This document shows, in pieces, positions 1,967-20,822 of a stretch of 20,837 bases of DNA. Source of the stretch: a virus; the IMG/VR virus record IMGVR_UViG_3300004097_000077, positions 1 through 20,837 of that record; one strand, given 5' to 3'. The first letter of the stretch is position 1. Each line of letters opens with the position of its first letter. Below the pieces are notes generated by a model. It did no database searches and was not told the origin of the DNA. It worked only from the letters and a program-made list of their open reading frames with translations. The position numbers and the translations under genes were made by a program.

Positions 1967-3811
1967 ATGGCCGGTGTTTTAATTGTAGAAGAGATACGTC
2001 CACCAGCGGATAAAACGTATATCAAAATTTCGGCACCTTTGACAAACGTACAAGGAACCGCAATCTTTGATCCGGTTTCTGGGAATACAAGTGTTCTCAT
2101 GTCAAAGTTTGCCGATGGTGAAGTACCTCTCGAAAAAATGACAATCAATGATGAATCAATTCCTTATAAAAGAATTGCGATTGCTAACAATCAAATTCTT
2201 GAGGAAAAGCTAGGACCAATTTCTTATGATAAGATTGTAATACCAGAAAAAGCAATCAAGCTTGACAAGATTGATATACCTCTCGCATCAATACATTGGA
2301 ATAAAATTGAAAATGGAATTCCAATTCACAAACTCGCTCCTGTTCCCTACAATAAACTTGCATTGAATGATGGTGATATTGAAGTAAGTAAACTTGCTCC
2401 AATACCATATGAAAAAATTGTTATCAACAAACATCAAATTCCACTTGACCATCTACCATCAAGTTTTGACTATAGCATGATCAATGTTCCTGATGAGGCA
2501 ATTGAATTAAGTAAATTGCCCGCAACAATACCATTCTCAAAAGTTGATATATCGGAACATCAAATTGGTTGGAACTTATTGCCGAATACAGTACCTTATG
2601 AGATGGTTGAAATTGCAGATGGTCAAATTGATATATCAAAGGTAACTATACCTGATGGTTCAATTTCTCTTACTGCATTTGAAATTGATCCTGGTACAAT
2701 TGAAGTTGATATGAGTGCTGCATTGATCCCTCCTGCATCAATTTCTGGTGCAAGCATAAAGACTTGGGAAACAAATTACATGCACTATATGCCAAACTAT
2801 ATTCTTCCTGGTCAGCAAAGAGTGATGCGCCAGAGATATGTAACTAGTATGGCTGAAGATATCAAGGAAATGATTCCTGCAGCATGTTTTATGCGTATTA
2901 GTGCAAAGGGTGGTGGTAATAATTCTTCACAGTGGACAGGTGTCCATATTAATGAAATGCTATATGAATCAAAAGGCAATTTCAATGTGCTAGTCATTGG
3001 CGGGCCGACCGGTAGATATCTTGATGATTTTCACAATCAAGACAAGCTTGATGCAGTTGAAGATTGGCGATTAAATATGTGGCATGCCGTTCCTCAAGAA
3101 TCAGTTATACTAGCGAACACCGCAAATATAACATTTTCAAATAATACAAATACAATCATCACAACTGATACTGGAGGAATCACAACATATACAGACCTTG
3201 ATGGCAATACAGTCAATACTGTAAATGCAACATTCATTATGTCTGAAGATTTTAATGCTCACACACCTGCAAATAATTATCCGATTTTAAGATTCGAATC
3301 GAATACAACTATTACAACAACAGATAGTAATACAATTTTCACAGATAGTGTTACTGGTAATACTATCAATACAATGAATGTTGTTATAACAACAAATAAA
3401 TGGGTGGAAAAAGATAAGCCATATTTAAATAAAAACATCCAATATGGACGTATAATCTATCATGAAGGATTTCCAAATAGTTCAACTGGAAGAAGTCAAG
3501 CAAGTGATGCATTTAACTTGTATTTGAAAGATGGCAACTATGTAATTTTTTGGACAAATGGTGCTGGCGCTCAATACCTTTCTGATTCAATGTCCGCACT
3601 TTCACCAAGAGGTGCAAACTATCCATCGAAATTTGCACATAACTTACCAAATGATTCAGCATACTACTGTATAATGATGGGCGGCGTTTCAGATAATCAC
3701 CATGAATTTTTATATGATCCGCCATTTGGTATTATTGATGAAGGATATTCACCAGAAGGTAATAATTCAAGAGCCTTTATAACATATAATAATTTCTTAC
3801 TATTATTCTGA
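1967..3811 (+). CDS. Long tail fibre protein with repetitive shaft
   Basis: A 614-residue protein, preceded by a good ribosome-binding site (AGAGGGAAG). The N-terminus (MAGVLIVEEIRPP) belongs to the shared anchor class of this locus. Residues about 62-232 are a periodic shaft of units of 20-22 residues with the pattern [IVF]-[PSD]-[YF]-x-[KM]-[IVL] followed by a KL-P turn, for example IPYEKIVINKHQIPLDHLP. After it come a linker (about 233-280), a globular region (281-384, including VLVIGGPTGRYLDDF), two similar Thr/Asn-rich modules (about 386-425 and 445-477) and a C-terminal domain of about 135 residues rich in Tyr and Asn, probably the tip. Such a layout fits a trimeric receptor-binding fibre. 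No enzymatic motif was recognised. Confidence 0.65.
   Translation: MAGVLIVEEIRPPADKTYIKISAPLTNVQGTAIFDPVSGNTSVLMSKFADGEVPLEKMTINDESIPYKRIAIANNQILEEKLGPISYDKIVIPEKAIKLDKIDIPLASIHWNKIENGIPIHKLAPVPYNKLALNDGDIEVSKLAPIPYEKIVINKHQIPLDHLPSSFDYSMINVPDEAIELSKLPATIPFSKVDISEHQIGWNLLPNTVPYEMVEIADGQIDISKVTIPDGSISLTAFEIDPGTIEVDMSAALIPPASISGASIKTWETNYMHYMPNYILPGQQRVMRQRYVTSMAEDIKEMIPAACFMRISAKGGGNNSSQWTGVHINEMLYESKGNFNVLVIGGPTGRYLDDFHNQDKLDAVEDWRLNMWHAVPQESVILANTANITFSNNTNTIITTDTGGITTYTDLDGNTVNTVNATFIMSEDFNAHTPANNYPILRFESNTTITTTDSNTIFTDSVTGNTINTMNVVITTNKWVEKDKPYLNKNIQYGRIIYHEGFPNSSTGRSQASDAFNLYLKDGNYVIFWTNGAGAQYLSDSMSALSPRGANYPSKFAHNLPNDSAYYCIMMGGVSDNHHEFLYDPPFGIIDEGYSPEGNNSRAFITYNNFLLLF
2150..2662 (+). repeat. 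Fibre shaft repeats (about 8 units of 60-66 bases)
   Basis: In translation this stretch reads as tandem units containing IPYKRIAI, ISYDKIVI, IHWNKI, VPYNKLAL, IPYEKIVI, FDYSMINV, IPFSKVDI and VPYEMVEI. Each is followed 10-12 residues later by an L-P or K-L turn. At nucleotide level the units have diverged, so this is a protein-level repeat of a beta-structured shaft and not a recent tandem duplication. Confidence 0.7.
3122..3397 (+). repeat. Two related Thr/Asn-rich modules inside the long fibre
   Basis: Residues about 386-425 (containing TNTIITTDTGG and DGNTVNTVNATF) resemble residues about 445-477 (containing TTITTTDSNTIF and TGNTINTMNVVI). The two copies are separated by about 20 residues. 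They look like a duplicated beta module in the fibre's distal half. Confidence 0.45.
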
Positions 3812-3820
3812 TAGGATAAA

Positions 3821-4228
3821 ATGCCGTATATAGGATCATCTAACCAAAATGTAAATACACGGTCATTGATTGAACATCAACATTATCTTCGTGTTGATGC
3901 TGATACAACAACATATCCTAATTACTATGCATTTCAAGTAAACTATACACCAGGAAATATAACTGTAGTTGTAGGTAATACCTTTTTAAAGCATACAGAA
4001 TACGTTGCAACAAATGGTAAAGAAGTTTTAATACCAACTTCATACACAATTTTAAGTACAGACCCAATTGAAATTATTGGATACAACGTACCAACAAGTT
4101 ATGCACTTGAACGTTCAGATGTAAACATTACTAATGGTATTATTGGTGGTGTAAATGTTACCGACTTTAAATCAATTCTTGATAGACTTGATGCGCTTGA
4201 GGCACAGGTTGCAAGCTTAACATCTTAA
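3821..4228 (+). CDS. Small fibre-associated structural protein with beta-hairpin module and C-terminal coiled coil
   Basis: A 135-residue protein nine bases after the long fibre gene, with AGGA in the gap as ribosome-binding site. Residues about 40-85 carry the 'Y-P-G-x-V-x-V-x-x-G-x-x-L-x-x-x-x-Y-x-A-x-N-G' module (here VNYTPGNITVVVG, then LKHTEYVATNGKEV), common in fibre proteins of marine phages. The end (FKSILDRLDALEAQVASL) is a strong heptad coiled coil, probably a trimerisation or attachment helix. It is likely a virion protein linking or completing a fibre. It shares the hairpin module with the gene at 4241. Confidence 0.5.
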   Translation: MPYIGSSNQNVNTRSLIEHQHYLRVDADTTTYPNYYAFQVNYTPGNITVVVGNTFLKHTEYVATNGKEVLIPTSYTILSTDPIEIIGYNVPTSYALERSDVNITNGIIGGVNVTDFKSILDRLDALEAQVASLTS

Positions 4229-4240
4229 TAAGTTAAAAAT

Positions 4241-4882
4241 ATGTTTATTGGAAATCAACCCGGAAGTGAAAAGATACAAGACCATAAATCATATGCAGGT
4301 GACGGAAACAGAAAGTTTTTTGCAATTGCCTATCAAGGTAATAATGTTCTTGTTTTTCTAAATGGTATTAAATTAAAAGAAGGCATTGATTATCATATTG
4401 AACCTACTGGTTCATATGTTGAATTTACTCTTGCACCTGAAATTGCAGACTCAATTGATCTTTATGGTGCAAGTGAAGTAACAGACCTTTCTCGTTCAAC
4501 ATATTCAAAAGAAACATTCACTGCAGGTGCAGGTCAAACAATGTTTCAATTGCTTGGTCAAATTGCAGGTGGTGAAAGAATCAATGTATATTTAAATGGT
4601 CTTCGTTTAGCAGAAAGCGATTATGAGATTGACTATATAAATAAAAATATAACAATTTCTCCCAGATTAGAGGGTGACATTATATTTGTTGAAATACTTC
4701 AACATGGTTTTCGAAGTTCAATGCACAATGCAAAGAACGAGAAAGCATTACACCCAATGTTTGCAACACCTTCAAAAGTCACTCAAAATCTATTAGTACC
4801 TGAAGGTGAGAATGCAATGTTAGTTGGTCCAATTGATCTAGAAGGTGTCATTGAAGTTAATGGCACTTTAACAATCGTTTAA
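4241..4882 (+). CDS. Structural protein with two 'NG-L-DY' beta-hairpin modules
   Basis: A 213-residue protein. Two copies of one module are visible: NVLVFLNGIKLKEGIDYHIE at about residues 30-49 and INVYLNGLRLAESDYEIDY at about 112-130, each followed by a strand and an acidic turn. The end (about 165-213) is different and contains LHPMFATPSKV and a hydrophobic final strand VNGTLTIV. The modules are typical of marine myovirus tail-fibre and baseplate-associated proteins. Its position between fibre genes supports a virion role. The ribosome-binding site is poor. The gap after it holds a late-promoter-like motif, so the transcription unit may be re-initiated there. Confidence 0.5.
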   Translation: MFIGNQPGSEKIQDHKSYAGDGNRKFFAIAYQGNNVLVFLNGIKLKEGIDYHIEPTGSYVEFTLAPEIADSIDLYGASEVTDLSRSTYSKETFTAGAGQTMFQLLGQIAGGERINVYLNGLRLAESDYEIDYINKNITISPRLEGDIIFVEILQHGFRSSMHNAKNEKALHPMFATPSKVTQNLLVPEGENAMLVGPIDLEGVIEVNGTLTIV

Positions 4883-4892
4883 ATTGTGAATA

Positions 4893-4901
4893 AGATAAAT
4901 A
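4893..4901 (+). promoter_or_regulatory. T4-like late promoter element (AGATAAATA)
   Basis: The nine bases AGATAAATA, identical to the element at 1691-1699, lie in the 59-base gap between the genes ending at 4882 and starting at 4942, giving an expected leader of roughly 35 bases. The gap is otherwise AT-rich and shows no convincing hairpin. Confidence 0.55.
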
Positions 4902-4941
4902 CTATTAATTGCTTAACAATAACAATTTAAAAAAAGTATAA

Positions 4942-5364
4942 ATGGCAAGTGTATTAAAAGTAGATAGTTTACAGGAATTAACGGCTAATGCTGGTATTCA
5001 TATTGTTGGTAAGATTACAGGACCTTCCGGTGATCTAATTACTGCTGACGGTAGACTTTCTGTAACGAGACAGAATATTAATGTCACTGAGGATTTAACA
5101 GCAAACAAAGTTATCGGTACTCAATTTGTAGGTTTTAAATTAAACATGGTTGAGAACCTAATAAATGCTGATAGTGCAGGAATAAATCAAGTATTAACCA
5201 CAGATGGTGCCGGCAACTTCTTTTTTGCTAATCCGATAGAAGCTGGAGCCATAGGATACGCTACTGACGCAATCGACAACATCATCGATGGTGGTGGACC
5301 CGGAGTAGTATATCTTGCTGAACTAGGAACAATCGATGGAGGAGGAGTAGTACAAGATGGCTAG
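4942..5364 (+). CDS. Small tail fibre protein
   Basis: A 140-residue protein. It starts MASVLKVDSLQELTANAGI, a clear member of the N-terminal anchor class that I also see at 99, 1967 and 10860. The middle contains VLTTDGAGNFFFANP, a pattern familiar from phage fibre proteins just before the distal part. The C-terminal 40 residues are rich in Gly and Asp (IIDGGGPG, IDGGGVVQDG), probably a flexible or glycine-rich tip. It overlaps the next gene by 8 bases and follows the late-promoter-like motif. No enzymatic function is seen. Confidence 0.5.
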   Translation: MASVLKVDSLQELTANAGIHIVGKITGPSGDLITADGRLSVTRQNINVTEDLTANKVIGTQFVGFKLNMVENLINADSAGINQVLTTDGAGNFFFANPIEAGAIGYATDAIDNIIDGGGPGVVYLAELGTIDGGGVVQDG

Positions 5365-5854
5365 TCTAATTCAAATACGAAGAGGAACTAAACAAGAGTG
5401 GTCAGACGAAAATCCTATTCTCAATTCTGGAGAGTTTGGATTTGAAACTGATACAGGACGATTAAAGATTGGAGACTCAACTAAACCATGGATTAATCTT
5501 GAATATTTCGTAAGAAACGAAAGTGATATTCGTGGTGATTTGTTACCACTCACACTTCAAACTGAAGATGTTACACTTCGTCGAAGTGATGGTGTTTCAA
5601 TCATTCGTGAAGAAAGTGGCACCGCTATTCTTGAAAACATTTCCATAGGTGTTAATGTTTCAGGTATTGCTGGTGGAGGTGGTGGTGCGGCAAACACTGC
5701 ATTCTATCGACTATCACTTGGTGCAAGTGGCACAGAACTTAATTGGGAAACTGTTGAAGGTGCAGAACAAGTTGACCTTGGACAAGAAGACCAATATCAT
5801 ATTGGTACAGGATCATTCTCACTTATTAACAACAATCTAGTATTAGTAATATGA
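5357..5854 (+). CDS. Tail fibre protein with tropism-determinant-like N-terminal domain
   Basis: A 165-residue protein. Residues 1-48 match the Mtd/hyaluronidase-fibre N-terminal pattern very well: IQIRRGTKQEW, then NPILNSGEFGFETDTGRL and KIGDSTKPW. This domain usually attaches a fibre to the phage particle. The rest is beta-rich with a glycine-rich linker (GIAGGGGGA) and a terminal ASGTELNWETV segment, short for a receptor-binding domain. Its stop overlaps the next ATG as ATGA (5851-5854), so it may be an adaptor made together with the RCC1-like protein downstream. This pairing is inferred from context only. Confidence 0.6.
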   Translation: MASLIQIRRGTKQEWSDENPILNSGEFGFETDTGRLKIGDSTKPWINLEYFVRNESDIRGDLLPLTLQTEDVTLRRSDGVSIIREESGTAILENISIGVNVSGIAGGGGGAANTAFYRLSLGASGTELNWETVEGAEQVDLGQEDQYHIGTGSFSLINNNLVLVI

Positions 5855-7635
5855 ATATAGATTTCAAAAAACTCGGATATCGTTGGCGTGGCTATTACGA
5901 TGTCAATCAAGTATATGCAGATAAAGATGTAGTATTTAAAGAAGGTGCTGCATTTGCATATGATTCACTTAGTCAGAATTTTAGGATATTTGCACGTGGG
6001 CATGAAGAAGCATTAGTCAAAGGTGAAATCATCGTTGGTGGTGATATTGACCGAGCGATTGGCAATCCTGGTGAATATCTTTATGTACGAGAAGGAAAAG
6101 TAAAGTTTGAACATCCAATTGACCGTAACGGAATAAAAGTTGTAAGACTTGGACAAAAAGCAGATTGTTGGATGGGCAACATTAATTACATGTCACATTG
6201 TTATGGTGTGTTTATCATGAGTGATGGTTCTGTTCGTGCGATGGGTAGAACATGGGAAGGTCAGCTTGGAACAGGTGACAAAGACGAAGGAATTGGTTAT
6301 TGGACTCCAATTCGTGTTAACTATCCTAACGGAACACCTGCACAAGTAAAAGCATTTCCTGGATACCATTGTTTACATACAATTGATGCTAAAGGACAAC
6401 TTTGGGGTGCTGGTGATGAATTTGCAGGTTGGTCATCATCCACAGACCATTTTGCTGATCCCGGTGGAGATGAAACTGAACAACGAATGACAAATGTTGG
6501 TGAACGTAGTGATATTGGTGATGCTAAAATTGTAGATGTTGTAAAATGCTTAGATCAATACTCACATTACGAAGTATTCTATGCAATTGATGATCAAGGA
6601 AGAGTTTATTCTTGGGGACATAATCCACATGGCATCCTTGGACACGGAAACACTAGTAGTATTCGGAGAGCAAAATTAATCGAATTTACAAAAGATATAC
6701 CAATTGCAAAAATTGGAACCGATGCTCATACTGTTACCGGTATGATTGACTATGATGGAAACTTATATACCTGCGGTCATTCAGGTTATAACTGGCATGG
6801 ACATCATCGTTACACTTTTGAAAAGGTTCATGGACTTCAAGGTAAATGTGTAGAGTTTACAGGAAATTCAAACGAAGGACATTGGAATCACGGTCATTAT
6901 TTATTCAGTAGTGTACTTCTTGAAGATGGTAGATTGTATGTTCGTGGAAATGGTTTTGGACAAGTAGGTTGGGGAACACCATCACCAGATACATCAAACG
7001 CATTCATCAATGATAATCATTTGCTTGGTAAAAACATTAAAAGAAGTTTTATGAAGCATGGTGGGTATGGAATATGTATAGCACAAAAATTTGATGGTTC
7101 TTGGATCTTTAGAGGTGATAACCGTTGGCATCTAAATTCCGGTGGACAAGCAAATATTGCACCATCAAATGCTGAAGACTGGGATACACGAACTGATTGT
7201 ATTTTAAATCCAGACTACTACAATAACAATATTGATCGCTATATATTTGTCGGCTCAAACATTAACGAAAATGCAATCGGACTAACAAAAGATGGTCGTG
7301 CATTTGTTGATGGCTGTAATCGTGTTGGGCAAAGAGGTAAAGGTGTATATGATTATTACTGGTACCTTGGTAAAAACTGGACAATAAACAACAGTAGCTA
7401 TACTGCAGACTTTGCACATAGCGGTGATGATTACATGCGTATCCGAGATAAAATTGTTGATGTTGCTTTCGCAGGTCACAATTGGCATCCTTATAACGCT
7501 AGTTATTATGATTACCTAGCTTGTTATTTCCTTACCGACAAAGGAGATGTTTTCGCAACTGGATCAAATCATTATGGAATTAATGGAAGTTATACCGGTG
7601 GTAATGCTGGTTGTCCACAAAAGATTTATTTTTAA
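5851..7635 (+). CDS. RCC1-like beta-propeller tail fibre protein (copy 1)
   Basis: A 594-residue protein. The N-terminus carries a CBM5/12-like module at about residues 9-50 (YRWRGYYDVNQVYADKDVVF: aromatic-G-aromatic, then Y-x-x-x-DVV). From about residue 120 I count eight RCC1-like repeats, each a hydrophobic strand, D-x-x-G-x-hydrophobic, then G-x-N/H-x-x-G-x-x-G. Examples are DGSVRAMGRTWEGQLGTG, GRVYSWGHNPHGILGHG and GDVFATGSNHYGING. RCC1 repeats fold into a beta-propeller. In this setting it is most plausibly a glycan- or protein-binding fibre head; nothing suggests the eukaryotic exchange-factor role. Another copy follows directly. The start overlaps the preceding stop. Confidence 0.7.
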   Translation: MNIDFKKLGYRWRGYYDVNQVYADKDVVFKEGAAFAYDSLSQNFRIFARGHEEALVKGEIIVGGDIDRAIGNPGEYLYVREGKVKFEHPIDRNGIKVVRLGQKADCWMGNINYMSHCYGVFIMSDGSVRAMGRTWEGQLGTGDKDEGIGYWTPIRVNYPNGTPAQVKAFPGYHCLHTIDAKGQLWGAGDEFAGWSSSTDHFADPGGDETEQRMTNVGERSDIGDAKIVDVVKCLDQYSHYEVFYAIDDQGRVYSWGHNPHGILGHGNTSSIRRAKLIEFTKDIPIAKIGTDAHTVTGMIDYDGNLYTCGHSGYNWHGHHRYTFEKVHGLQGKCVEFTGNSNEGHWNHGHYLFSSVLLEDGRLYVRGNGFGQVGWGTPSPDTSNAFINDNHLLGKNIKRSFMKHGGYGICIAQKFDGSWIFRGDNRWHLNSGGQANIAPSNAEDWDTRTDCILNPDYYNNNIDRYIFVGSNINENAIGLTKDGRAFVDGCNRVGQRGKGVYDYYWYLGKNWTINNSSYTADFAHSGDDYMRIRDKIVDVAFAGHNWHPYNASYYDYLACYFLTDKGDVFATGSNHYGINGSYTGGNAGCPQKIYF

Positions 7636-7657: not shown

Positions 7658-9430
7658 ATGGCAAACGTAGTTTTAGGAAAGGTTGCGATTTCTTGGAAAG
7701 GAGAATGGTCAACTAGTCTTACATATACAAAACAAGATGTAGTCAGAAATGGTGCATCTGCTTATATTTGTGTAGCCGATGCAAGCACTCCAGGTACATT
7801 TGATACAGATGAGTGGGAACTATTTGCCCAAGGTACCTCTGATATTGCATCCACTGCTGGTGACATTATATATCATGATGGTACAGAACTTGTATCATTA
7901 CCAATTGGTACACAAAATCAAACACTCACTGTAAATCTAAACGGTGTTCCTGAGTGGACTTCAAACCCATCAAGAAGTTCTGTTCGTGTCCGTAACTTTC
8001 CAATGTGGACTGGTGTCGGACTGAATAGCTATGAGCAATGGGCGATCATGGACAATGGTGACATGCGAGCCTGGGGTCATGGTGGACACTATGGTTTAGG
8101 ACAAGGAAACAATAGTAATGCCCGAGCAGTACCGAACATCATTCCATTTCCACAAGGATTTCCTGGTGTAAAAGCTGACAATGCACAAAGAGCATATGCA
8201 TATGGTTTTAGCATCATTGATGAAAATGATGATTTATGGACATGGGGTAGAATAGAATATGGTGTTACAGGAATGAATGGTGATGCATGGGTTCCTCATA
8301 ATATCATGAAAGTTAATGATGGTGCAAATCCATTCTATGAAGGTAATGTTGATCCTGTAAAAGCCGCATACTTAGCATTGCCTTGTGGTTCAGAAAGTTA
8401 TGTTTGTATGGGTGTACTCGGAACAGATGGTAAAGTGTACATGACAGGATATAATGGTTATGGTCAACTAGCAAGAGGAAGTACATCAGATAGCGGATGG
8501 TTTGTAAGAAGTGATTACTTCAACAATATCGTAGATGGAACTCCTGCAGTTTTTGCAGAAGATGGTGTAACAATTGTAACACCAGAAATTGTTGGTACAC
8601 CAATTACAAAATTTAAACTCGGTAGATGTAGATATACACATGGTTTGGCAGTTGATACATCAGGACGGTTGCACATGTGGGGATACAATGGTGACTATCA
8701 ACTTGGAAATGGTAACTCAACAAATCAACCAACTCCTTTTCATCTAAATCAAGGTTCAATCACTGGACGTAGAATTGTGGATGCTTGGGGTGCCTGGTGT
8801 TGTACATACATTCTTGATGAAGATCAAAATCTTCATTTCTGTGGTTCCGATCATTACGGTAGAAGTGGTCTTGGTATTCATACTGGTAGTAGCGGAAATA
8901 ATGGTTCAACAAGAAATCCTGTATTAACAATTGATGATGTTGAATTAGTTGCATTTGATACTTATGATTATCCAGCAGCATATGTTATGAAAACAGATAA
9001 GACTTTGTGGGCAACAGGATATAATAGCCCAGGAAATCTTGGAATTAATAGTACAAGCCATAGTTCATCTTGGGCACAAATGGACATGAGTAATTTCATG
9101 TCTGATGAAATTCCAACCAAAATTTTCTGCAATGGCTCAAATGGTCATAACGTATTTGGTTGTGTGACAAACAAAGGACGAGTAATGGTTTGTGGATACA
9201 ATGGATACGGACAACTTGGTATAGGACATTCATCAAGTAGATCCAAGCTTGAACCTGTTATATGCCGTGAATTCATTGTTGATGCAATCTTCCAAGGACA
9301 TGAAAGATACATGAACTTGAATGTTCTACTTGAAGATGGTCAAATGCTATCAACCGGTTGTGGTGATAACCATGCACTAGCATCTGAAGATGGTGAAGAA
9401 TACTGGACATTATCACCAATTCGTTTCTAA
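7658..9430 (+). CDS. RCC1-like beta-propeller tail fibre protein (copy 2)
   Basis: A 590-residue protein with the same architecture as its upstream neighbour. A CBM5/12-like module lies at about residues 10-60 (ISWKGEWSTSLTYTKQDVV, then WELFAQGTSD), followed by a short linker and, from about residue 125, eight RCC1-like repeats. Examples are GDMRAWGHGGHYGLGQG, GRLHMWGYNGDYQLGNG and GRVMVCGYNGYGQLGIG. The GYNGYGQLG form is nearer the RCC1 consensus than most repeats in copy 1. The ribosome-binding site is GAAGAGG. The tandem pair has almost equal lengths, so it probably arose by duplication followed by strong divergence. A role as an alternative or partner receptor-binding propeller is inferred. 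Confidence 0.72.
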   Translation: MANVVLGKVAISWKGEWSTSLTYTKQDVVRNGASAYICVADASTPGTFDTDEWELFAQGTSDIASTAGDIIYHDGTELVSLPIGTQNQTLTVNLNGVPEWTSNPSRSSVRVRNFPMWTGVGLNSYEQWAIMDNGDMRAWGHGGHYGLGQGNNSNARAVPNIIPFPQGFPGVKADNAQRAYAYGFSIIDENDDLWTWGRIEYGVTGMNGDAWVPHNIMKVNDGANPFYEGNVDPVKAAYLALPCGSESYVCMGVLGTDGKVYMTGYNGYGQLARGSTSDSGWFVRSDYFNNIVDGTPAVFAEDGVTIVTPEIVGTPITKFKLGRCRYTHGLAVDTSGRLHMWGYNGDYQLGNGNSTNQPTPFHLNQGSITGRRIVDAWGAWCCTYILDEDQNLHFCGSDHYGRSGLGIHTGSSGNNGSTRNPVLTIDDVELVAFDTYDYPAAYVMKTDKTLWATGYNSPGNLGINSTSHSSSWAQMDMSNFMSDEIPTKIFCNGSNGHNVFGCVTNKGRVMVCGYNGYGQLGIGHSSSRSKLEPVICREFIVDAIFQGHERYMNLNVLLEDGQMLSTGCGDNHALASEDGEEYWTLSPIRF

Positions 9431-13226: not shown

Positions 13227-14496
13227 TGATGGTGATATTTATGGATATATTTTTGCATATTCATTATTCAATATGTCTCTTGAGAGAAGTATTTCAATTG
13301 ATATTGAATTCATCAAACTACCAGACTCAAAAGAAGTTGTAAACGATAATCTATTATTAAATCAAAGTCTACAGTATATGAATAGGTCTTGTTTTTTTAA
13401 TAATATTGATATTTCAACATTTAATGCAGTTTATGCAATCAATCAACAACTTTGTAATTTTTTTGAAGAAGATGCTGAGACATATTTGAATCATAATAAT
13501 GGATGTCTTCGACACGATGCTAAAGAAATAGCCCAATATATGGAAGTACATGATAGTCAATATGATGTAGATAATCTTTACTATCAAAATATACTTGCTA
13601 AGAACGACCTTTTTGATTCAAGTTTGATCAACTCTATGTATAATATTACATTTGATTCTGCATACTTTGTTGAACAAATGACAACACTGTTCAAAAGTTT
13701 AAACAATTTTACATATCGTGAGACTGATTTGTCTGACGATATTTTTAAGACAGAATCAAATGGCCAATTGTTCTTCTTTGACAATACCTATGACAACGTG
13801 ATGACAAATGCTGAGTATAGTAAAAGTGGTTCGAAATTTCAATTTAAGTATGATCGACAAATTAAAAATCCACATAAATACATCGAAGAAGATATTTTAA
13901 ATTTTGAAAAAATTGAATTTTCAAATAAAGAAATCAAGCAGACCATATCATCCTTTGATAGCAACATAGAAACAATTTATCTGAAAAATGATAGTGTCAC
14001 AAATGATTTAAATTCACATGTCTATCAAAACAATGTGTTCAATATTGGTGTTGCTTTTTGCAAATATAACTTTTCGTTTCATTTAGATCAATTTTTACAT
14101 TTTTATGTTCTAGATAAAGTATCTACTTTCATATTGAATAATAAAAGAAATTTTTCATATCTAAAATCAGTTCACATATATGCTGCTAAAATTATGAAAA
14201 ATATTGATATGTTTTTACACAAATTATTAGTGTGTTCCGGACAATTAGAAGAATTACCTTCTTATAATTTTGATTTATTACAAGGAACAAATATTGACTT
14301 TTTGAACTTGAAATATTTTAATGTTGATAGAAATAATTTTACTGAAAGTACTCAAAGAAAAGTTTTTGATTTTATATCCATGAATAAACCATTTATAAAA
14401 ACTAAAAATTATAAGTTATCAAATCAATATGTATATCTTATGCAACACCAATACAAACAAGATTTATCTTTAAAGACGGAGTTATTATATGTCTGA
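13207..14496 (+). CDS. Hypothetical protein, possibly a divergent FAD-dependent halogenase-like protein
   Basis: A 429-residue protein with a good ribosome-binding site (AAGGA) and a 20-base overlap with the gene before. The N-terminus MKCLIINDGDIYGYIFAYSL has the strand-turn-helix rhythm of a dinucleotide-binding fold, and DGDIYGY aligns with the GGGTAGW of tryptophan halogenases, but with two of the three Gly lost. Later, YNFSFHLDQFLHFYVLDK (about 287-304) resembles the FHxDxxLF segment of that family. Everything else is unrecognisable, so the similarity is weak; it could be a decayed relative or coincidence. It lies between two unrecognised or glycosyltransferase-like genes in the AT-richest part of the window. 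Confidence 0.4.
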   Translation: MKCLIINDGDIYGYIFAYSLFNMSLERSISIDIEFIKLPDSKEVVNDNLLLNQSLQYMNRSCFFNNIDISTFNAVYAINQQLCNFFEEDAETYLNHNNGCLRHDAKEIAQYMEVHDSQYDVDNLYYQNILAKNDLFDSSLINSMYNITFDSAYFVEQMTTLFKSLNNFTYRETDLSDDIFKTESNGQLFFFDNTYDNVMTNAEYSKSGSKFQFKYDRQIKNPHKYIEEDILNFEKIEFSNKEIKQTISSFDSNIETIYLKNDSVTNDLNSHVYQNNVFNIGVAFCKYNFSFHLDQFLHFYVLDKVSTFILNNKRNFSYLKSVHIYAAKIMKNIDMFLHKLLVCSGQLEELPSYNFDLLQGTNIDFLNLKYFNVDRNNFTESTQRKVFDFISMNKPFIKTKNYKLSNQYVYLMQHQYKQDLSLKTELLYV

Positions 14497-16198
14497 GGAC
14501 TATCAAATAAAAATTGCAGACAAAAATTTTAAAAAAAATTTGAAATTAAATGAAGAATACCCCGCTAATGTTTGGACTTTCGCACATGTGAATTTGTATA
14601 ATGATTATTTCATACCTTGTCCGCCTAAAGATAGCACGGAAAAATATAATAAAAGATGGGATTTTAATTCAACGGAAAGAATTTTTTCACCCGAAAATTA
14701 TCTATTAACTTATCACAATAAAAGATTTTTTGATATTCAAACTAAAGAATTAAGTCTTTCAAATCGTGAAAGGTCAAAAATCAAAGATAAATCAATGATC
14801 ATTGGTTCACGATATCGGTTTTATATTCCACTCATTGATAAAAGTTCAGATTATCCATGGGTAATATATGCTGACCCAACAATGCTATTTCTTAATAATC
14901 CTAGAAGTATTATTGAAAATTTAGATCCATCTAAAACTGTTTATGTGTGTAAGCATGACAATTATACTACAAAAAAACAAACTAAAACTTTGATACCGAG
15001 TATAAATTATCCATTCAACGTAAGTATAAAAGATTTTTTTGAACTTTTAAAATATTTAAATGAAAATCCAGAACATTATTTTCACAAAGGAAGAAACATC
15101 GTAATTGAAACTTTAAAAGAATTATATTCATCTGAAAATTTTGAAAAGTTTGAAAAGTTATTTGCACAAAGAGATTTAAGCCAAGATGACTTTATGAAAG
15201 CATGTCTTGCTATTTTTAAAGATAAAAAGAATTATATGCTTCGCAATAAACATATTGCAAGTGAACAAGTACTTGAAGAAATTTATCAAAGATGGTATGT
15301 TAGTGATGAAATGGAATCATTTGATAATTTTGATTATGATAGAAAAAATTGGTCAAGCTTTATGATCTTTAACAAAGAAAAATTTAATTTGAAATGGCGT
15401 CAACTTGATAGTTATTCAATTGAAGACTTGCATCAATTCAAATGGTGTACTGACGAAGAAATTGGTGAATTACCATTAAGTTGGAATCATCTTGTAGATG
15501 AGCAAGAAGATATTTCAAATCCAAATGCGTTGAATTTTACTGTTGATTCTCCAGGTAGATACAAATCAAACAGTACTTCAAAACTGAATCAAAAATATAT
15601 TAATATAAATTTGGCGCAAATCTTATGTTTAGAAGAACTACCTTTTTCCACACCTGATGAAAATGCTCCTGAAGATGAAGGCTCTTATTGGCTTGATGTA
15701 TTTGAAAAAACTATTAAATACATTCTAGATCTAACACCAAAAAAATTAGAAAGTGCATGTGAAAAGTTGAATATTAAAAATTTTTCACCACTCGAAGTTT
15801 TATACACTCAGAAAGATGCACAACATGGGTTTGGACTTGCTGATTTACAATATTCTAACAATGTTAAAGATCCTTTGCCTAGTCCGATTCGAGAAGAACA
15901 CCTTACTAAAGAATTAGATAATGAAGTTAATAAAAATTATAATCAACAGTGTGCAGTACACAATGGATATAATATAGAATTTTATGTTCAAAATTGCTAT
16001 GATTCAAAAAATAAAATTAAAGAAATGATGAAAATACTACAAGAACAAATTAAGAATTTATCAGAAAATGATAAAAAAGAAATTGTTAATATCATGCATA
16101 CTTATAATCTTACTGCTCAGAATGCCGTATTAGGTACTGATACATTTCACCGAGATAAATGTTTGAGTATTCGTGAACTAACAGGAAGGTTGATATAA
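14489..16198 (+). CDS. Long, DxD-less paralogue of the downstream GT-A glycosyltransferase
   Basis: A 569-residue protein with ribosome-binding site GGAG and an 8-base overlap with the preceding gene. Residues about 107-137 (SRYRFYIPLI, then WVIYADPTMLFLNNP), 151-157 (VYVCKHD), 286-297 (KNWSSFMIFNKE), 314-328 (LHQFKWCTDEEIGEL) and 331-336 (SWNHLV) match the glycosyltransferase at 16203 in order. Three differences stand out: CDDDFLF of that enzyme is ADPTMLF here, so the DxD metal/sugar-nucleotide motif is lost; about 125 residues (about 158-284) are inserted between VCKHD and KNWSS; and a C-terminal region of about 210 residues (after 357) has no counterpart. A non-catalytic or re-purposed glycosyltransferase relative is the best reading. 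Confidence 0.65.
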   Translation: MSEDYQIKIADKNFKKNLKLNEEYPANVWTFAHVNLYNDYFIPCPPKDSTEKYNKRWDFNSTERIFSPENYLLTYHNKRFFDIQTKELSLSNRERSKIKDKSMIIGSRYRFYIPLIDKSSDYPWVIYADPTMLFLNNPRSIIENLDPSKTVYVCKHDNYTTKKQTKTLIPSINYPFNVSIKDFFELLKYLNENPEHYFHKGRNIVIETLKELYSSENFEKFEKLFAQRDLSQDDFMKACLAIFKDKKNYMLRNKHIASEQVLEEIYQRWYVSDEMESFDNFDYDRKNWSSFMIFNKEKFNLKWRQLDSYSIEDLHQFKWCTDEEIGELPLSWNHLVDEQEDISNPNALNFTVDSPGRYKSNSTSKLNQKYININLAQILCLEELPFSTPDENAPEDEGSYWLDVFEKTIKYILDLTPKKLESACEKLNIKNFSPLEVLYTQKDAQHGFGLADLQYSNNVKDPLPSPIREEHLTKELDNEVNKNYNQQCAVHNGYNIEFYVQNCYDSKNKIKEMMKILQEQIKNLSENDKKEIVNIMHTYNLTAQNAVLGTDTFHRDKCLSIRELTGRLI

Positions 16199-16202
16199 CA
16201 AT

Positions 16203-16916
16203 ATGACTAATTCATGGATTAATTTTTGGATTGGGCATACACCCAAGCATGTGATTGCTTCTGAGGTTTGCGCTCAAGTTTTATATGACAAATATAAATT
16301 CCCAGTATATCGACATGTTGCCTATTTTAAGGATAAGAACACAACAAATCCTTTTTCAAGAACACGATTTACTACACCTCTCTTAGATGATGATGTTTCT
16401 GATTCAGATTGGGTATTTTATTGTGATGACGATTTTCTTTTCTTGAATGATCCAAGAGTACTATTGCGTGAACTTGATGATTCAAAAAAAGTGTATGTAT
16501 GTAAACATGATTATACACCAAAGACAGCAAAAAAACTTGACGGTGAAATTCAGAACACTTATGAAAGAAAGAACTGGTCAAGTTTTATGATCTTCAATAA
16601 AAGAAAATTTGATTTGAAGATGTCTGATATTTTTGAAATCTCATTGATGGATTTACATCAGTTTCGATGGTGTGATGATAAAGAGATTGGTGAAATTCAC
16701 AAGTCATGGAACTGGCTTGTAGGTGAGTACGAAGAAGAACCAACTTCATTGAATGCATTGCACTATACATTAGGTGGACCTTGGTATGAGGAAGAAGCTT
16801 ATCAATCTAAATATAATGACTTATGGCTCGAATATAAAGATCACTACTTCCCGGAGGCACCACCAATCTATGAAGGCACTAATAGTTATCGGCTATCACA
16901 AGAAGGACAGCTTTAA
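16203..16916 (+). CDS. GT-A-fold glycosyltransferase
   Basis: A 237-residue protein. It shows the full pattern of a glycosyltransferase family common in marine phages and bacteria: an N-terminal substrate strand (FWIGHTPKHVIASEVCAQVL), FSRTRFTTPLL, the metal-binding WVFYCDDDFLFLND (DDD at 75-77), YVCKHDYTPKTAKKLDG, KNWSSFMIFN, LHQFRWCDDKEIGE, SWNWLVGEY and NALHYTLGGPWY. Family knowledge says these transfer a sugar from a nucleotide sugar. Neither donor nor acceptor can be read here; candidates are the virion surface or the host envelope glycan. The DxD and the GGPW segment are intact, unlike in the upstream paralogue. It overlaps the next gene by 47 bases. Confidence 0.8.
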   Translation: MTNSWINFWIGHTPKHVIASEVCAQVLYDKYKFPVYRHVAYFKDKNTTNPFSRTRFTTPLLDDDVSDSDWVFYCDDDFLFLNDPRVLLRELDDSKKVYVCKHDYTPKTAKKLDGEIQNTYERKNWSSFMIFNKRKFDLKMSDIFEISLMDLHQFRWCDDKEIGEIHKSWNWLVGEYEEEPTSLNALHYTLGGPWYEEEAYQSKYNDLWLEYKDHYFPEAPPIYEGTNSYRLSQEGQL

Positions 16917-17490
16917 TCACGGTATCGCACATACTATCAGAAAAGAATATGAATCATTTGAAAAACCATGCACAGTAATTGATTTGTATGATGATGAGTT
17001 TCACGCCGCTTTTCATGCCGAGAAAAACGAAAAATTAATTGAGAAGTATAAAAAACTGATTAAAGATGCAACGCACATATACTTTGTCAGTCCTGTTTGG
17101 TGGTTCCGTTGTACGTCAATGCTTGAAGGGTTTTTTGACCAACTCTTTGTGCCTGGATTTGCTTACAAGTTTCGAGCAATCACTAAGACATATGGAGTGC
17201 CAGAACCGTTGCTACGAGACAAAACTGTTTATACCTATCTCACACACGGCGCTCCAGCTTTACCTGTCCATACGCTTTATATTAACTCTGTGAAGTGGAG
17301 ATTACAGTTAGGTGTGTTCAGTTTTGTTTTTGGTTGGTTCAGACCTACAATACGACAATTCTTTTCCGTGCCGTTTTGTTCTGATCAAAAGAGAGAAAAG
17401 ATGTTGAAGATTGTTCGGAAGGATGTTGAAATGGAAGTAGGCAAGTGGACAAAAGATGATTGGTTTTCCGACTTACCTTGGCATTCATAA
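16870..17490 (+). CDS. Flavodoxin-fold NAD(P)H:quinone oxidoreductase-like protein
   Basis: A 206-residue protein when started at ATG 16870, where the fold begins (MKALIVIGYHKKDSFNHGIA). A GGAGG lies 12 bases upstream. An upstream in-frame ATG at 16774 would lie deep in the preceding gene. The motifs of the Flavodoxin_2 (MdaB/KefF/quinone reductase) family are clear: the first strand and phosphate loop, then ATHIYFVSPVWWFRCTSMLE with GFFDQLFVPGFAYKF (residues about 68-101), and YTYLTHGAP (121-129). Such enzymes bind FMN or FAD and reduce quinones or other electrophiles with NAD(P)H. In a phage this is an auxiliary metabolic gene. It is the last plus-strand gene, is less AT-rich than the block before it, and its stop abuts a minus-strand stop. 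Confidence 0.8.
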   Translation: MKALIVIGYHKKDSFNHGIAHTIRKEYESFEKPCTVIDLYDDEFHAAFHAEKNEKLIEKYKKLIKDATHIYFVSPVWWFRCTSMLEGFFDQLFVPGFAYKFRAITKTYGVPEPLLRDKTVYTYLTHGAPALPVHTLYINSVKWRLQLGVFSFVFGWFRPTIRQFFSVPFCSDQKREKMLKIVRKDVEMEVGKWTKDDWFSDLPWHS

Positions 17491-17655
17491 ACGATTGGCA
17501 CGGTCTTCTTCTATAGCCTCACGAACCATATCAGTTTCTCTTGCTTTTCGTTCCCAAACTGATTCATCATATTCTGGCCAGCACATTCTTGAGATGTGAA
17601 GTCCTACAATAATGCCGAGCGCAAACCCGACACCAAACATAAATCCTATTTCCAC
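17485..17655 (-). CDS. 56-residue membrane-anchored microprotein
   Basis: A minus-strand frame from GTG 17655 to TGA at 17485-17487. An internal ATG at 17640 gives a 51-residue version. The GTG is favoured because stop-C-start spacing (TGAcGTG) occurs here exactly as for two other genes in this run. One hydrophobic N-terminal helix (FMFGVGFALGIIVGLHI) is followed by a charged cytoplasmic-type tail (WERKARETDMVREAIEEDR), which is an N-anchored helical protein. Its stop codon lies against the stop of the convergent plus-strand gene, overlapping by six bases. Function unknown. Confidence 0.55.
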   Translation of the reverse strand: MEIGFMFGVGFALGIIVGLHISRMCWPEYDESVWERKARETDMVREAIEEDRANRL

Positions 17656-17656
17656 G

Positions 17657-17908
17657 TCACTCTTTTTTCTTTACATCTGAGTTTTCATAATCATCATCAT
17701 GCCTTACGTCATAAACATTGAGTTCGATAAGTTTAAGACCGATGATATAAAAAGACCAATAGAACCCACGATGTGATCCTTTGATTTTTGCAGATAAACT
17801 ATTTTCGTAAATTGGAAACCAACCTGGCGAACCAAACCATGTAAGAACGTCAATCTCAAATGCCCAGTTATCCGTAAGTTTTGCTGTAAAATATGTTTTG
17901 ATTTTCAT
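17657..17908 (-). CDS. Conserved-looking small phage protein, aromatic-rich
   Basis: An 83-residue protein with ribosome-binding site AGG 5 bases before the ATG. It begins MKIKTYFTAKLTDNWAFEID and holds a Trp/Phe/Gly-rich core (WFGSPGWFPIYEN, then GFYWSFYIIGLKLIELNVYD). The end is acidic, then KKKE. The pattern suggests a small beta-sandwich soluble protein. I believe similar small proteins occur in T4-like phages, but I cannot name a function. It is two bases downstream of the neighbouring gene's stop. Confidence 0.6.
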   Translation of the reverse strand: MKIKTYFTAKLTDNWAFEIDVLTWFGSPGWFPIYENSLSAKIKGSHRGFYWSFYIIGLKLIELNVYDVRHDDDYENSDVKKKE

Positions 17909-17910
17909 CT

Positions 17911-18312
17911 TTACCTATTGTTAAAGTAGTCGAAAAATACGTCTGTAGGTGTCTTATGGCTACCAGTTGCCACACCACGATGATATACATAGGCGATTAA
18001 ATCGCCATTGCTATCTTCAACAATATGTAAATCTGGATACTTACTGATGTTTGATCGTGAAAGTGATGCAGAACCTTTTTTCAAATAGTTCTTCATTGAT
18101 TCCACAAACATCGGTACGGCTTTAATTCGTTTATGACCAAAGAATTCCTCAATGACTTCTTCTGTTAAAGTCAATTCATCAAGTCCTTCAAGATACTGTA
18201 GTTCATCACGAACCAAATCTTGCTTCTGACTCATTACATACATTTGATTACTCACCATATCTGATGTATAATTTTGAATATCTTCTTCAAATAAATTCAA
18301 TTGCACTGTCAT
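17911..18312 (-). CDS. Hypothetical early phage protein
   Basis: A 133-residue protein when started at ATG 18312. A TTG at 18321 would add three residues but puts the GGAGGG too close, so the ATG, one base after the previous stop, is preferred. It starts MTVQLNLFEEDIQNYTSD, is acidic and helical through about residue 75 (ELQYLEGLDELTLTEEVIEE), then has basic KRIKAVPMFVESMKNYLKKG and a C-terminal strand-rich part (DLHIVEDSNGDLIAYVYHRG). No family is recognised. It is probably soluble, and may be a small host-takeover or regulatory protein given its place in an early-type operon. Confidence 0.6.
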   Translation of the reverse strand: MTVQLNLFEEDIQNYTSDMVSNQMYVMSQKQDLVRDELQYLEGLDELTLTEEVIEEFFGHKRIKAVPMFVESMKNYLKKGSASLSRSNISKYPDLHIVEDSNGDLIAYVYHRGVATGSHKTPTDVFFDYFNNR

Positions 18313-18313
18313 G

Positions 18314-18421
18314 TCATTCAATACCCTCCGGGATGGCTAAATCTTCAAGTACAGGAAAGCCTATAAGAAATAGAATCAAAATGGCAAGAATTACAAACAA
18401 TGCAAATCCTTCGTTACGCAC
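18314..18421 (-). CDS. 35-residue membrane microprotein
   Basis: GTG start at 18421 with an excellent ribosome-binding site (AAGGAGG, 8 bases upstream), TGA at 18314-18316, 35 residues. It reads MRNEGF, then one hydrophobic helix (ALFVILAILILFLIGF), then VLEDLAIPEGIE. It begins one base after the preceding gene's stop and ends one base before the next gene's ATG. The strong Shine-Dalgarno and exact packing support translation. Function unknown. Confidence 0.65.
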   Translation of the reverse strand: MRNEGFALFVILAILILFLIGFPVLEDLAIPEGIE

Positions 18422-18422
18422 G

Positions 18423-18563
18423 TTAAAGGCCTCCTTGTATTACTGCAATTGCAAAAACTGTATTGAAAATAAAAAATCCAAGAATGCCAATGATGATATC
18501 ATACTCTTGGATTTTACTATTCTCAACTTTATACTTATTTAGATCATCGGATGAATGCTGCAT
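18423..18563 (-). CDS. 46-residue membrane microprotein
   Basis: ATG at 18563, chosen because AAGG lies 7 bases upstream; three earlier in-frame ATGs have no ribosome-binding site. The stop at 18423-18425 lies one base before the GTG of the next gene, whose ribosome-binding site sits in this gene's final codons. Residues 1-20 are polar (start MQHSSDDLNKYKVE). Residues about 23-43 are one hydrophobic segment (IIIGILGFFIFNTVFAIAVI). The start lies 20 bases inside the preceding gene's end. Function unknown. Confidence 0.6.
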   Translation of the reverse strand: MQHSSDDLNKYKVENSKIQEYDIIIGILGFFIFNTVFAIAVIQGGL

Positions 18564-18672
18564 ATGGAGACCTTGGTTGAGGTTGTTGTTCATCGGTAAC
18601 ATTGTAAATGTAAACATTAAAAATAAATGAAAAAACTAAACTCATAAAGATAATCATTCTTAGACTTGTCAT
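18544..18672 (-). CDS. 42-residue microprotein with N-terminal hydrophobic segment
   Basis: ATG at 18672, TGA at 18544-18546, 42 residues. The start MTSLRMIIFMSLVFSFIFNV is one short basic N-terminus followed by a hydrophobic helix, resembling a signal anchor or an uncleaved signal peptide. A polar, proline-containing tail (TDEQQPQPRSPYAAFIR) follows. Ribosome-binding site weak (GAG). It starts 19 bases after the neighbouring gene and overlaps the next by 20 bases. Function unknown. Confidence 0.5.
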   Translation of the reverse strand: MTSLRMIIFMSLVFSFIFNVYIYNVTDEQQPQPRSPYAAFIR

Positions 18673-18691
18673 AACAAACTCACATTAAATG

Positions 18692-18847
18692 TTAATAATC
18701 AGCCTTTGTACTATCTAAGAAAAAATCAAGTAATGTCTTATTTTGCAACATCACTTCTTCAATAAATGGATAGGACAACATAAACAAAAGTAAAAGAGAA
18801 GACCAAATTAATATTCTTCTCCATCTACGGTAGTTTGCAGGAGTCAT
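18692..18847 (-). CDS. 51-residue membrane microprotein
   Basis: ATG at 18847 with AGAGG 4 bases upstream, TAA at 18692-18694, 51 residues. Basic N-terminus (MTPANYRRWRR), one hydrophobic helix at about residues 12-28 (ILIWSSLLLLFMLSYPF), then a polar tail with KTLLDFFLDSTKADY. The positive-inside rule predicts the N-terminus in the cytoplasm. The start overlaps the stop of the small ORF before it (ATGA). Function unknown. Confidence 0.6.
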   Translation of the reverse strand: MTPANYRRWRRILIWSSLLLLFMLSYPFIEEVMLQNKTLLDFFLDSTKADY

Positions 18848-18948
18848 ATTACCTCTATTGAAAATGCGGCAATTACATGCCGCTTGTTGGTGGCAATTTC
18901 AACCACAATGACGACCTTTTCTTCATTCAGTGACACAACGAATATCAT
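18844..18948 (-). CDS. 34-residue possible microprotein
   Basis: A short minus-strand frame from ATG 18948 to TGA at 18844-18846, overlapping the next ATG as ATGA. It reads MIFVVSLNEEKVVIVVEI, then ATNKRHVIAAFSIEVI: two beta-strand-like segments, no membrane helix. No ribosome-binding site is visible, and alternative starts (TTG 18951, GTG 18936) are no better. It is supported only by the tight coupling to the following gene and is the least certain gene of this run. Confidence 0.3.
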   Translation of the reverse strand: MIFVVSLNEEKVVIVVEIATNKRHVIAAFSIEVI

Positions 18949-18981
18949 CAAGGATGTAGACGTAGGTATGAATGCCGCTAT

Positions 18982-18997
18982 CTATCGCCTTCGATAG
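18982..18997 (-). other. Perfect hairpin between early genes
   Basis: CTATCG (18982-18987) and CGATAG (18992-18997) form a 6-bp perfect stem with a 4-base loop. It lies 9 bases past the stop of the 19007 gene. No run of U follows on either strand, so it is not a classical terminator. It could be an RNA-processing or stability element between the 84-residue gene and the microprotein run. Confidence 0.4.
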
Positions 18998-19006
18998 CGA
19001 AACGGC

Positions 19007-19261
19007 TCAACGCCAATCTTTTCTATCGCCAATAATTTCTGAGTATTTGTAGCCAGCGTAGTAGTCGGCAACTTGTTCGGGCGTCATCGATTCTTCGGTG
19101 ATTCTTTTGCCACGAACTTTACTACCTTCCGTATAGTAGTGAGGATCTTCCGGGCGATAATAGTAAAAGTCAGCAGTGCCACAATCCCATGGAGAACAAT
19201 GTGATGTATCACGACCTTCTTTTAACTTTTCTAATTCTTCGGTGTTTTGAAAAACAATCAT
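19007..19261 (-). CDS. Small early protein, 84 residues, function unknown
   Basis: ATG at 19261 with a strong ribosome-binding site (AAGGAG, 5 bases upstream). It reads MIVFQNTEELEKLKEG, then SHCSPWDCGTADFYYYRP (two Cys, SPWDCG turn) and ends with a helix MTPEQVADYYAGYKYSE and GDRKDWR. It is hydrophilic, with no membrane segment or signal peptide. It is the first gene behind the sigma70-like promoter at 19306-19333, so it is probably strongly expressed early. The SPWDCGTADFYYY pattern looks like a distinct small phage family, but I cannot assign a function. The two Cys could bind a metal or be incidental. Confidence 0.65.
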   Translation of the reverse strand: MIVFQNTEELEKLKEGRDTSHCSPWDCGTADFYYYRPEDPHYYTEGSKVRGKRITEESMTPEQVADYYAGYKYSEIIGDRKDWR

Positions 19262-19305
19262 GACAACTCCTTATAAGAAATATCAATCACTCAACTCATG
19301 ATCAG

Positions 19306-19333
19306 ATCATATCATATTGAGAAGAAATGTCAA
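19306..19333 (-). promoter_or_regulatory. Sigma70-like early promoter P1
   Basis: On the minus strand, TTGACA (complement of 19328-19333) and TATGAT (complement of 19306-19311) are 16 bases apart, near-consensus -35 and -10 boxes. The upstream flank AAAAGTTC and the downstream sequence CTGATCATGAGTTGAGTGA are almost the same as at the promoter at 20795-20822. The transcript would start about 40 bases before the ATG at 19261. The -35 box begins 7 bases after the stop of the 19340 gene. Confidence 0.75.
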
Positions 19334-20132: not shown

Positions 20133-20529
20133 TTCTTCTTTCTACTTCTCTAAGTATTTGTTGCAAATAATCAATTGCATCTTCAAGGTCTCCAGAATGT
20201 CCGCCATAAAATTGGCAACGGAAGATTAATTGAAAAACATTATATGCTTTAATGTTATCTTCGCATTTTAAAAACTCTTTCATCTTCATTCGAATAGGAC
20301 TTCCGGCTTGTATATTTTCAGATAAAATCGGAATTTCTTTTAAGGTCTTTTGCCTATTTAGATACCAAATCGCTTTGTGTATATCTTGAATACCACCCTT
20401 CAGGTGGTAGCGAAAAAGATATTTGAAAGCATTGCCTAAGTTAAAACACATCTGCTCACAAATATCTATCGCCTCAATTCCTGAAGGATGTCGGTTGTAG
20501 TGTTCGGGATGGTTTACTTTTTCACTCAT
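20116..20529 (-). CDS. DUF3310-family protein with duplicated core
   Basis: A 137-residue protein. The first half has the DUF3310 signature: VNHPEHYNRHPSGIEAIDIC, then LGNAFKYLFRYHLKGG and DIHKAIWYLNRQ. DUF3310 proteins are widespread in phages, sometimes labelled nucleotide kinase-like, with no proven activity. The second half (about residues 94-131) repeats the same core in weaker form: YNVFQLIFRCQFYGG, DLEDAIDYLQQI. The usual family core is only about 60 residues, so the length fits an internal duplication. It overlaps the upstream gene by 4 bases (ATGA). Confidence 0.75.
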   Translation of the reverse strand: MSEKVNHPEHYNRHPSGIEAIDICEQMCFNLGNAFKYLFRYHLKGGIQDIHKAIWYLNRQKTLKEIPILSENIQAGSPIRMKMKEFLKCEDNIKAYNVFQLIFRCQFYGGHSGDLEDAIDYLQQILREVERRNEQLC

Positions 20530-20794: not shown

Positions 20795-20822
20795 ATCTTA
20801 ACAGACTGGTCAGGAATGTCAA
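20795..20822 (-). promoter_or_regulatory. Sigma70-like early promoter P2
   Basis: On the minus strand, TTGACA (complement of 20817-20822) and TAAGAT (complement of 20795-20800) are spaced 16 bases. The flanks AAAAGTTC upstream and CTGATCATG-TTGAGTGAGTGA downstream repeat those of P1. It drives the genes at 20744 and 20529 and probably the one at 20132. Confidence 0.75.

Follow-up and report, generated by a model that had tools for sequence, protein, structure and literature searches.

The locus analyzed here raised the question of whether a run of very short open reading frames (ORFs) in an uncultured virus encodes genuine membrane proteins and, if so, what these might do for the phage. The stretch studied (hereafter the window) is a 20,837-base record. 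Genes for tail-fibre, collar, and RCC1-repeat proteins occupy its left part, on the plus strand; the operon itself, including its promoter, lies on the minus strand and, in every lineage compared, points at tail-fibre or flavodoxin genes of opposite orientation. Two pairs of adjacent proteins were also observed in the window. Those at 14489–16198 and 16203–16916 both belong to phrog_28018 (PHROGs, unknown function), which suggests a duplication, and those at 5851–7635 and 7658–9430, in the tail-fibre region, are of similar size, the second matching RCC1-repeat families and the first being similar by eye.

Relatives and scope of the comparison

No DNA match to the window was found among 50,697 cultured-phage records, and searches of cultured phages at both nucleotide and protein level returned a single weak match, that of the first operon product, p84, to Roseobacter phage CRP-901 (E 2e-5), where no recognisably similar operon was annotated around the match. 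The relatives were uncultured metagenomic contigs throughout. They were counted as five lineages (the window, L004, L013, a 146.5-kb virus record, and L042) rather than as eleven records, some viruses having been sampled repeatedly: L004 and L005 represent one virus, as do L040, L041, L042, and L043, and the loci L026 and L033 both come from the 146.5-kb record. Gp23 and terminase models did not place this record among known phages, the Gp23 control itself matching nowhere. The record also encodes a full-length glycine dehydrogenase (GcvP, 955 aa; L026 4134–7001), and a NifU/IscU-type protein with an intein-like insertion was observed on a phage contig (L024 8186–9055; NifU_N E 2e-48, Intein_splicing E 8e-7). 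Over 3.1 kb, contig 3300048010_000543 shared 99.9% identity with the window, differing from it within the helix run at one base (18373), synonymous in p35.

Operon layout and evidence for genes

The initial annotation had read six small minus-strand genes as a tightly packed series of membrane microproteins. The coordinates and lengths of these ORFs (34, 51, 42, 46, 35, and 56 aa; named here by length) were reproduced, as were the ATGA overlap of p34 and p51 (18844–18847), the 20-base overlap of p42 and p46 (18544–18563), the stop-C-start junctions before 18421, 18312, and 17655, and the AAGGAGG placed 8 bases before p35. Where genes of the conserved core described below adjoin, they are linked by 4-base overlaps or one-base gaps and are therefore probably translated together. 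One hydrophobic helix was likewise recovered in five of the six ORFs, with best 19-residue Kyte-Doolittle means of 1.79 (p51, a borderline score), 2.01 (p42), 2.58 (p46), 3.12 (p35), and 2.15 (p56); p34, with a mean of 1.59 and charged residues throughout, was not convincing. The helices are predicted to be hydrophobic enough for insertion, and charge patterns suggest that the N-terminus lies inside for p51, p42, and p35, with p56 oriented the opposite way. As a control, positions 17400–19300 were subjected to 300 mononucleotide shuffles, in which ORFs of 28–60 aa scoring at least 2.0 arose at a mean of 0.14 per strand (maximum 2), vs. three observed on the minus strand and none on the plus strand.

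Conservation is far stronger evidence for genes than this excess. Frames were intact and starts present in diverged lineages, p46 having a lineage-specific upstream start, and synonymous change exceeded nonsynonymous change: pN/pS was 0.14–0.56 for p51, p29/p46, and p56, and 0.22–0.51 for p35 (window, L004, and L013), the deepest p35 comparisons being saturated and uninformative in this respect. Between the window and L004, differences at codon positions 1, 2, and 3 numbered 10, 4, and 24 in p35 (pS 0.94, pN 0.21) and 11, 3, and 25 in p56. Judged by their relatives, p51, p46, p35, and p56 are real, conserved genes under purifying selection, and for these four the reading as distinct single-helix microproteins was borne out.

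The remaining two ORFs fared differently. The gene status of p42 (18544–18672) is plausible, given its frame and hydrophobicity; it was found only in near-identical contigs, and its slot in L042 and L033 holds an unrelated two-helix protein of 53/57 aa. The 34-aa ORF p34 (18844–18948) is probably not a gene and likely a chance ORF: it had no Shine-Dalgarno sequence and no homologue in the relatives examined, and it overlaps a terminator-like hairpin (18883–18866) in a 159-nt structured stretch (folding z = −2.7). This structured RNA, spanning 18848–19006 between p84 and p51, is a possible attenuator.

Promoter and first gene

The operon starts with p84 (19007–19261), a soluble protein of 84 aa with homologues in the same place in L033 and L042 (p87 in both). 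The claim that an early-type promoter precedes the operon was upheld, in that a host-type promoter was found upstream and repeated in the genome. This sigma-70-like promoter (19290–19333) reads TTGACA-16-TATGAT followed by CTGATCAT, and a second copy in the window starts at 20822. Across four lineages, nine distinct copies of the motif TTGACaTTtC...TCTGnTATGATCTGATCAT were found, and it stands ahead of p84 in the window and of its homologues in L033 and L042. The resemblance to the host sigma-70 type would suit early expression. A match to mir-365 at 20403–20483 was far under the family threshold and was dismissed.

Conserved core and lineage-specific members

Two helix proteins and their downstream neighbour proved the most widely kept. 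Residues 18–46 of p46 (18423–18563) match 28–29-aa proteins of the four other lineages; the 17-residue N-terminal extension is peculiar to the window lineage and goes with the 20-base p42/p46 overlap. Since p46 has an isoleucine at the alignment position where the other lineages have their initiating methionine, its translation must begin upstream. Identity was 46–54% in the tblastn segments of L004 and L042, and independent pairwise searches against the other lineages gave E values of 1e-4 to 1e-7. The second helix protein, p35 (18314–18421), has a GTG start and an acidic C-terminus, and p133 begins one base downstream. Family models gave one match per record for p46/29-aa (E 1e-16 to 1e-20) and a single match in each of four records for p35 (E 4e-15 to 2e-19); both were built from these same lineages, and their matches thus indicate uniqueness rather than independent homology. 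Across the deepest split, p35 and its 33-aa counterpart are 23–26% identical, so that the case for their relationship draws on position and on a profile made from the same sequences. The soluble partner p133 (17911–18312) was 42–66% identical in four other lineages. It had no family or fold match, with weak structure models (mean pLDDT 70.6, five models disagreeing), and no match turned up when bacterial and archaeal genomes were scanned. The soluble, beta-rich p83 (17657–17908; 42–74% identity in four other lineages) had no significant fold match, its structure models also being weak (mean pLDDT 67.0, five models disagreeing).

Homologues of p51, p46, p35, p133, p83, and p56 follow one another in L004 and L013 as in the window, with a methyltransferase-like gene and a Bmp/PnrA-type lipoprotein gene lodged between members. 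L033 and L042 carry, in order, p87, a 140/143-aa protein, the two-helix 53/57-aa protein that replaces both p42 and p51, a 28/29-aa helix protein (the p46 core), a 33-aa helix protein (p35 position), a 109/111-aa protein (p133), a 91/96-aa protein, and an 82/88-aa protein (p83). The p46 core and p35 stand directly ahead of p133 in five lineages, two of which have a cargo gene separating the pair. The helix protein and p133 meet in an ATGA overlap in L013, L033, and L042; in L004 the overlap is TAATG, and in the window a gap of one base lies between them. In L004 and L013 the Bmp lipoprotein gene splits the two helix proteins, so strict co-translation does not hold for the pair in every lineage. 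That lipoprotein gene, intact in L004, is broken in L013 by a 668-aa reverse transcriptase/maturase-type ORF (2735–5470; RVT_1 E 4e-37, RVT_N E 8e-25), in the manner of a group II intron inserted in a phage.

The tight run of four was not sustained as a selected series: four consecutive helix genes are peculiar to the window lineage, p42 and p51 vary between lineages, and cargo genes stand between members in two. What is conserved is a core of a 28–46-aa helix protein, a 33–37-aa helix protein, and p133.

The flanking helix proteins were more restricted. In p51 (18692–18847), a basic N-terminus (MTPANYRRWRR) precedes the helix, and a probable N-in/C-out topology is predicted; it is present in three lineages (pN/pS 0.46–0.56), with 34-aa homologues beginning MSPANFRRWRR in L004 and L013 (E 5e-9 and 1e-8). 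A Presenilin match of p51 (E 0.029) was far under the family threshold and was dismissed. The helix-then-acidic-tail pattern prompted consideration of a common ancestry of p51 and p35, for which profile probability was just 53% and no claim is made. The last gene, p56 (17485–17655), encodes an N-terminal helix and a charged tail of ~35 residues, with probable N-out/C-in topology. It was found in three lineages (73–76% identity in L004 and L013; dN/dS 0.19–0.24), and a possible 29-aa relative lies in the 146.5-kb record near that record's flavodoxin gene.

In the window, p56 overlaps a convergent flavodoxin gene by 6 bases. This flavodoxin-fold, quinone-reductase-like protein (window 16867–17490; L024 4583–5188) is conserved next to the operon in three lineages; a second copy is present on contig 3300023110_000115, and a search with this protein recovered bacterial relatives only.

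Possible functions of the operon

The helix proteins had no named relative in Pfam, PHROGs, PADLOC, or cultured phages. They are families without prior description within a familiar category, that of short phage genes with no assigned function. A general precedent comes from small membrane proteins known to attach to larger membrane complexes and modulate them, among them the bacterial microproteins CydX, KdpF, and AcrZ, which resemble the helix proteins in having ~30–50 residues, one helix, and often an operon setting. However, the genes of CydX and KdpF adjoin those of the complex to which each protein binds, whereas the operon studied here contains no such target gene.

The best explanation, which we put forward tentatively, is a probably early phage operon whose inner-membrane microproteins would act on host membrane proteins, a form of host-membrane takeover. 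The operon interleaves predicted inner-membrane microproteins (p51, p42, p46, p35, and p56) with soluble p84, p133, and p83. Soon after infection the helix proteins would enter the inner membrane and bind host integral membrane proteins, such as transport, respiratory, translocation, or DNA-entry machinery, altering their activity; p133 would partner them from the membrane face as a soluble protein, and the variable members (p42, p51, and the two-helix 53/57-aa protein) could be host- or rival-specific additions. A more specific and clearly more speculative version holds that the p46/28-aa and p35/33-aa helix proteins form with p133 a translation-coupled membrane complex of a kind not described before, fixed in a group of large uncultured phages, which would reprogram some inner-membrane machine of the host or keep rivals out.

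The main dull alternative is a loose set of unrelated accessory genes: an early region gathering small, perhaps near-dispensable genes that are adjacent through compaction and share no function. The swapping of members and the insertion of methyltransferase and Bmp lipoprotein cargo between lineages would fit it, as would helix families that are mutually unrelated save for the weak p51/p35 profile match (53% probability). However, the order 28/29-aa, 33/35-aa, p133, p83 is kept in all five lineages even though p133 identity falls to 42%, and we regard this alternative as considerably less probable than action on host membrane proteins.

Much the same standing, perhaps slightly lower, is given to superinfection exclusion, by which at least one helix protein in the inner membrane would keep the DNA of related phages from entering, as T4 Imm and P22 SieA do. 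The likeness is that of phage-encoded inner-membrane proteins, here predicted from sequence; the early-type promoter agrees with it, and lineage-variable members could reflect diversification against rivals. However, no sequence relationship to known exclusion families, SieA and Imm included, was found in Pfam, PHROGs, or PADLOC, SieA has ~162 residues and three helices (PMC10883804) vs. one here, and the core is kept across distant phages rather than diversifying fast.

Lysis regulation by small holins, antiholins, or pinholin-like regulators appears unlikely. Single hydrophobic helices with short tails would suit it, and the 57-aa protein of L033 had a very weak holin-family match (phrog_1129, E 0.12), but that protein does not occur in the window, neither an endolysin nor a spanin gene was recognised in the neighbourhood, and the early-type promoter and accompanying soluble proteins of other kinds argue against it. 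That the ORFs are chance hydrophobic frames and no genes at all is highly improbable: short ORFs do arise randomly, and p34 is probably one, but conserved frames, starts, and synonymous excess over lineages contradict this for p51, p46, p35, and p56.

Very short, formerly uncalled phage genes have been recognised by conservation across metagenomic phages before, as in the bulk catalogue of small phage genes by Fremin et al. (2022, Cell Reports), as cited in PMC11364881; the genes described here differ in belonging to a defined operon with a conserved order and a shared promoter. Proteins of ~30 residues are routinely left out of phage annotation. Two such proteins kept in fixed order over five lineages turn a short-ORF guess into defined, testable families, and the conserved core of p46, p35, and p133 can now be told apart from lineage-specific additions.
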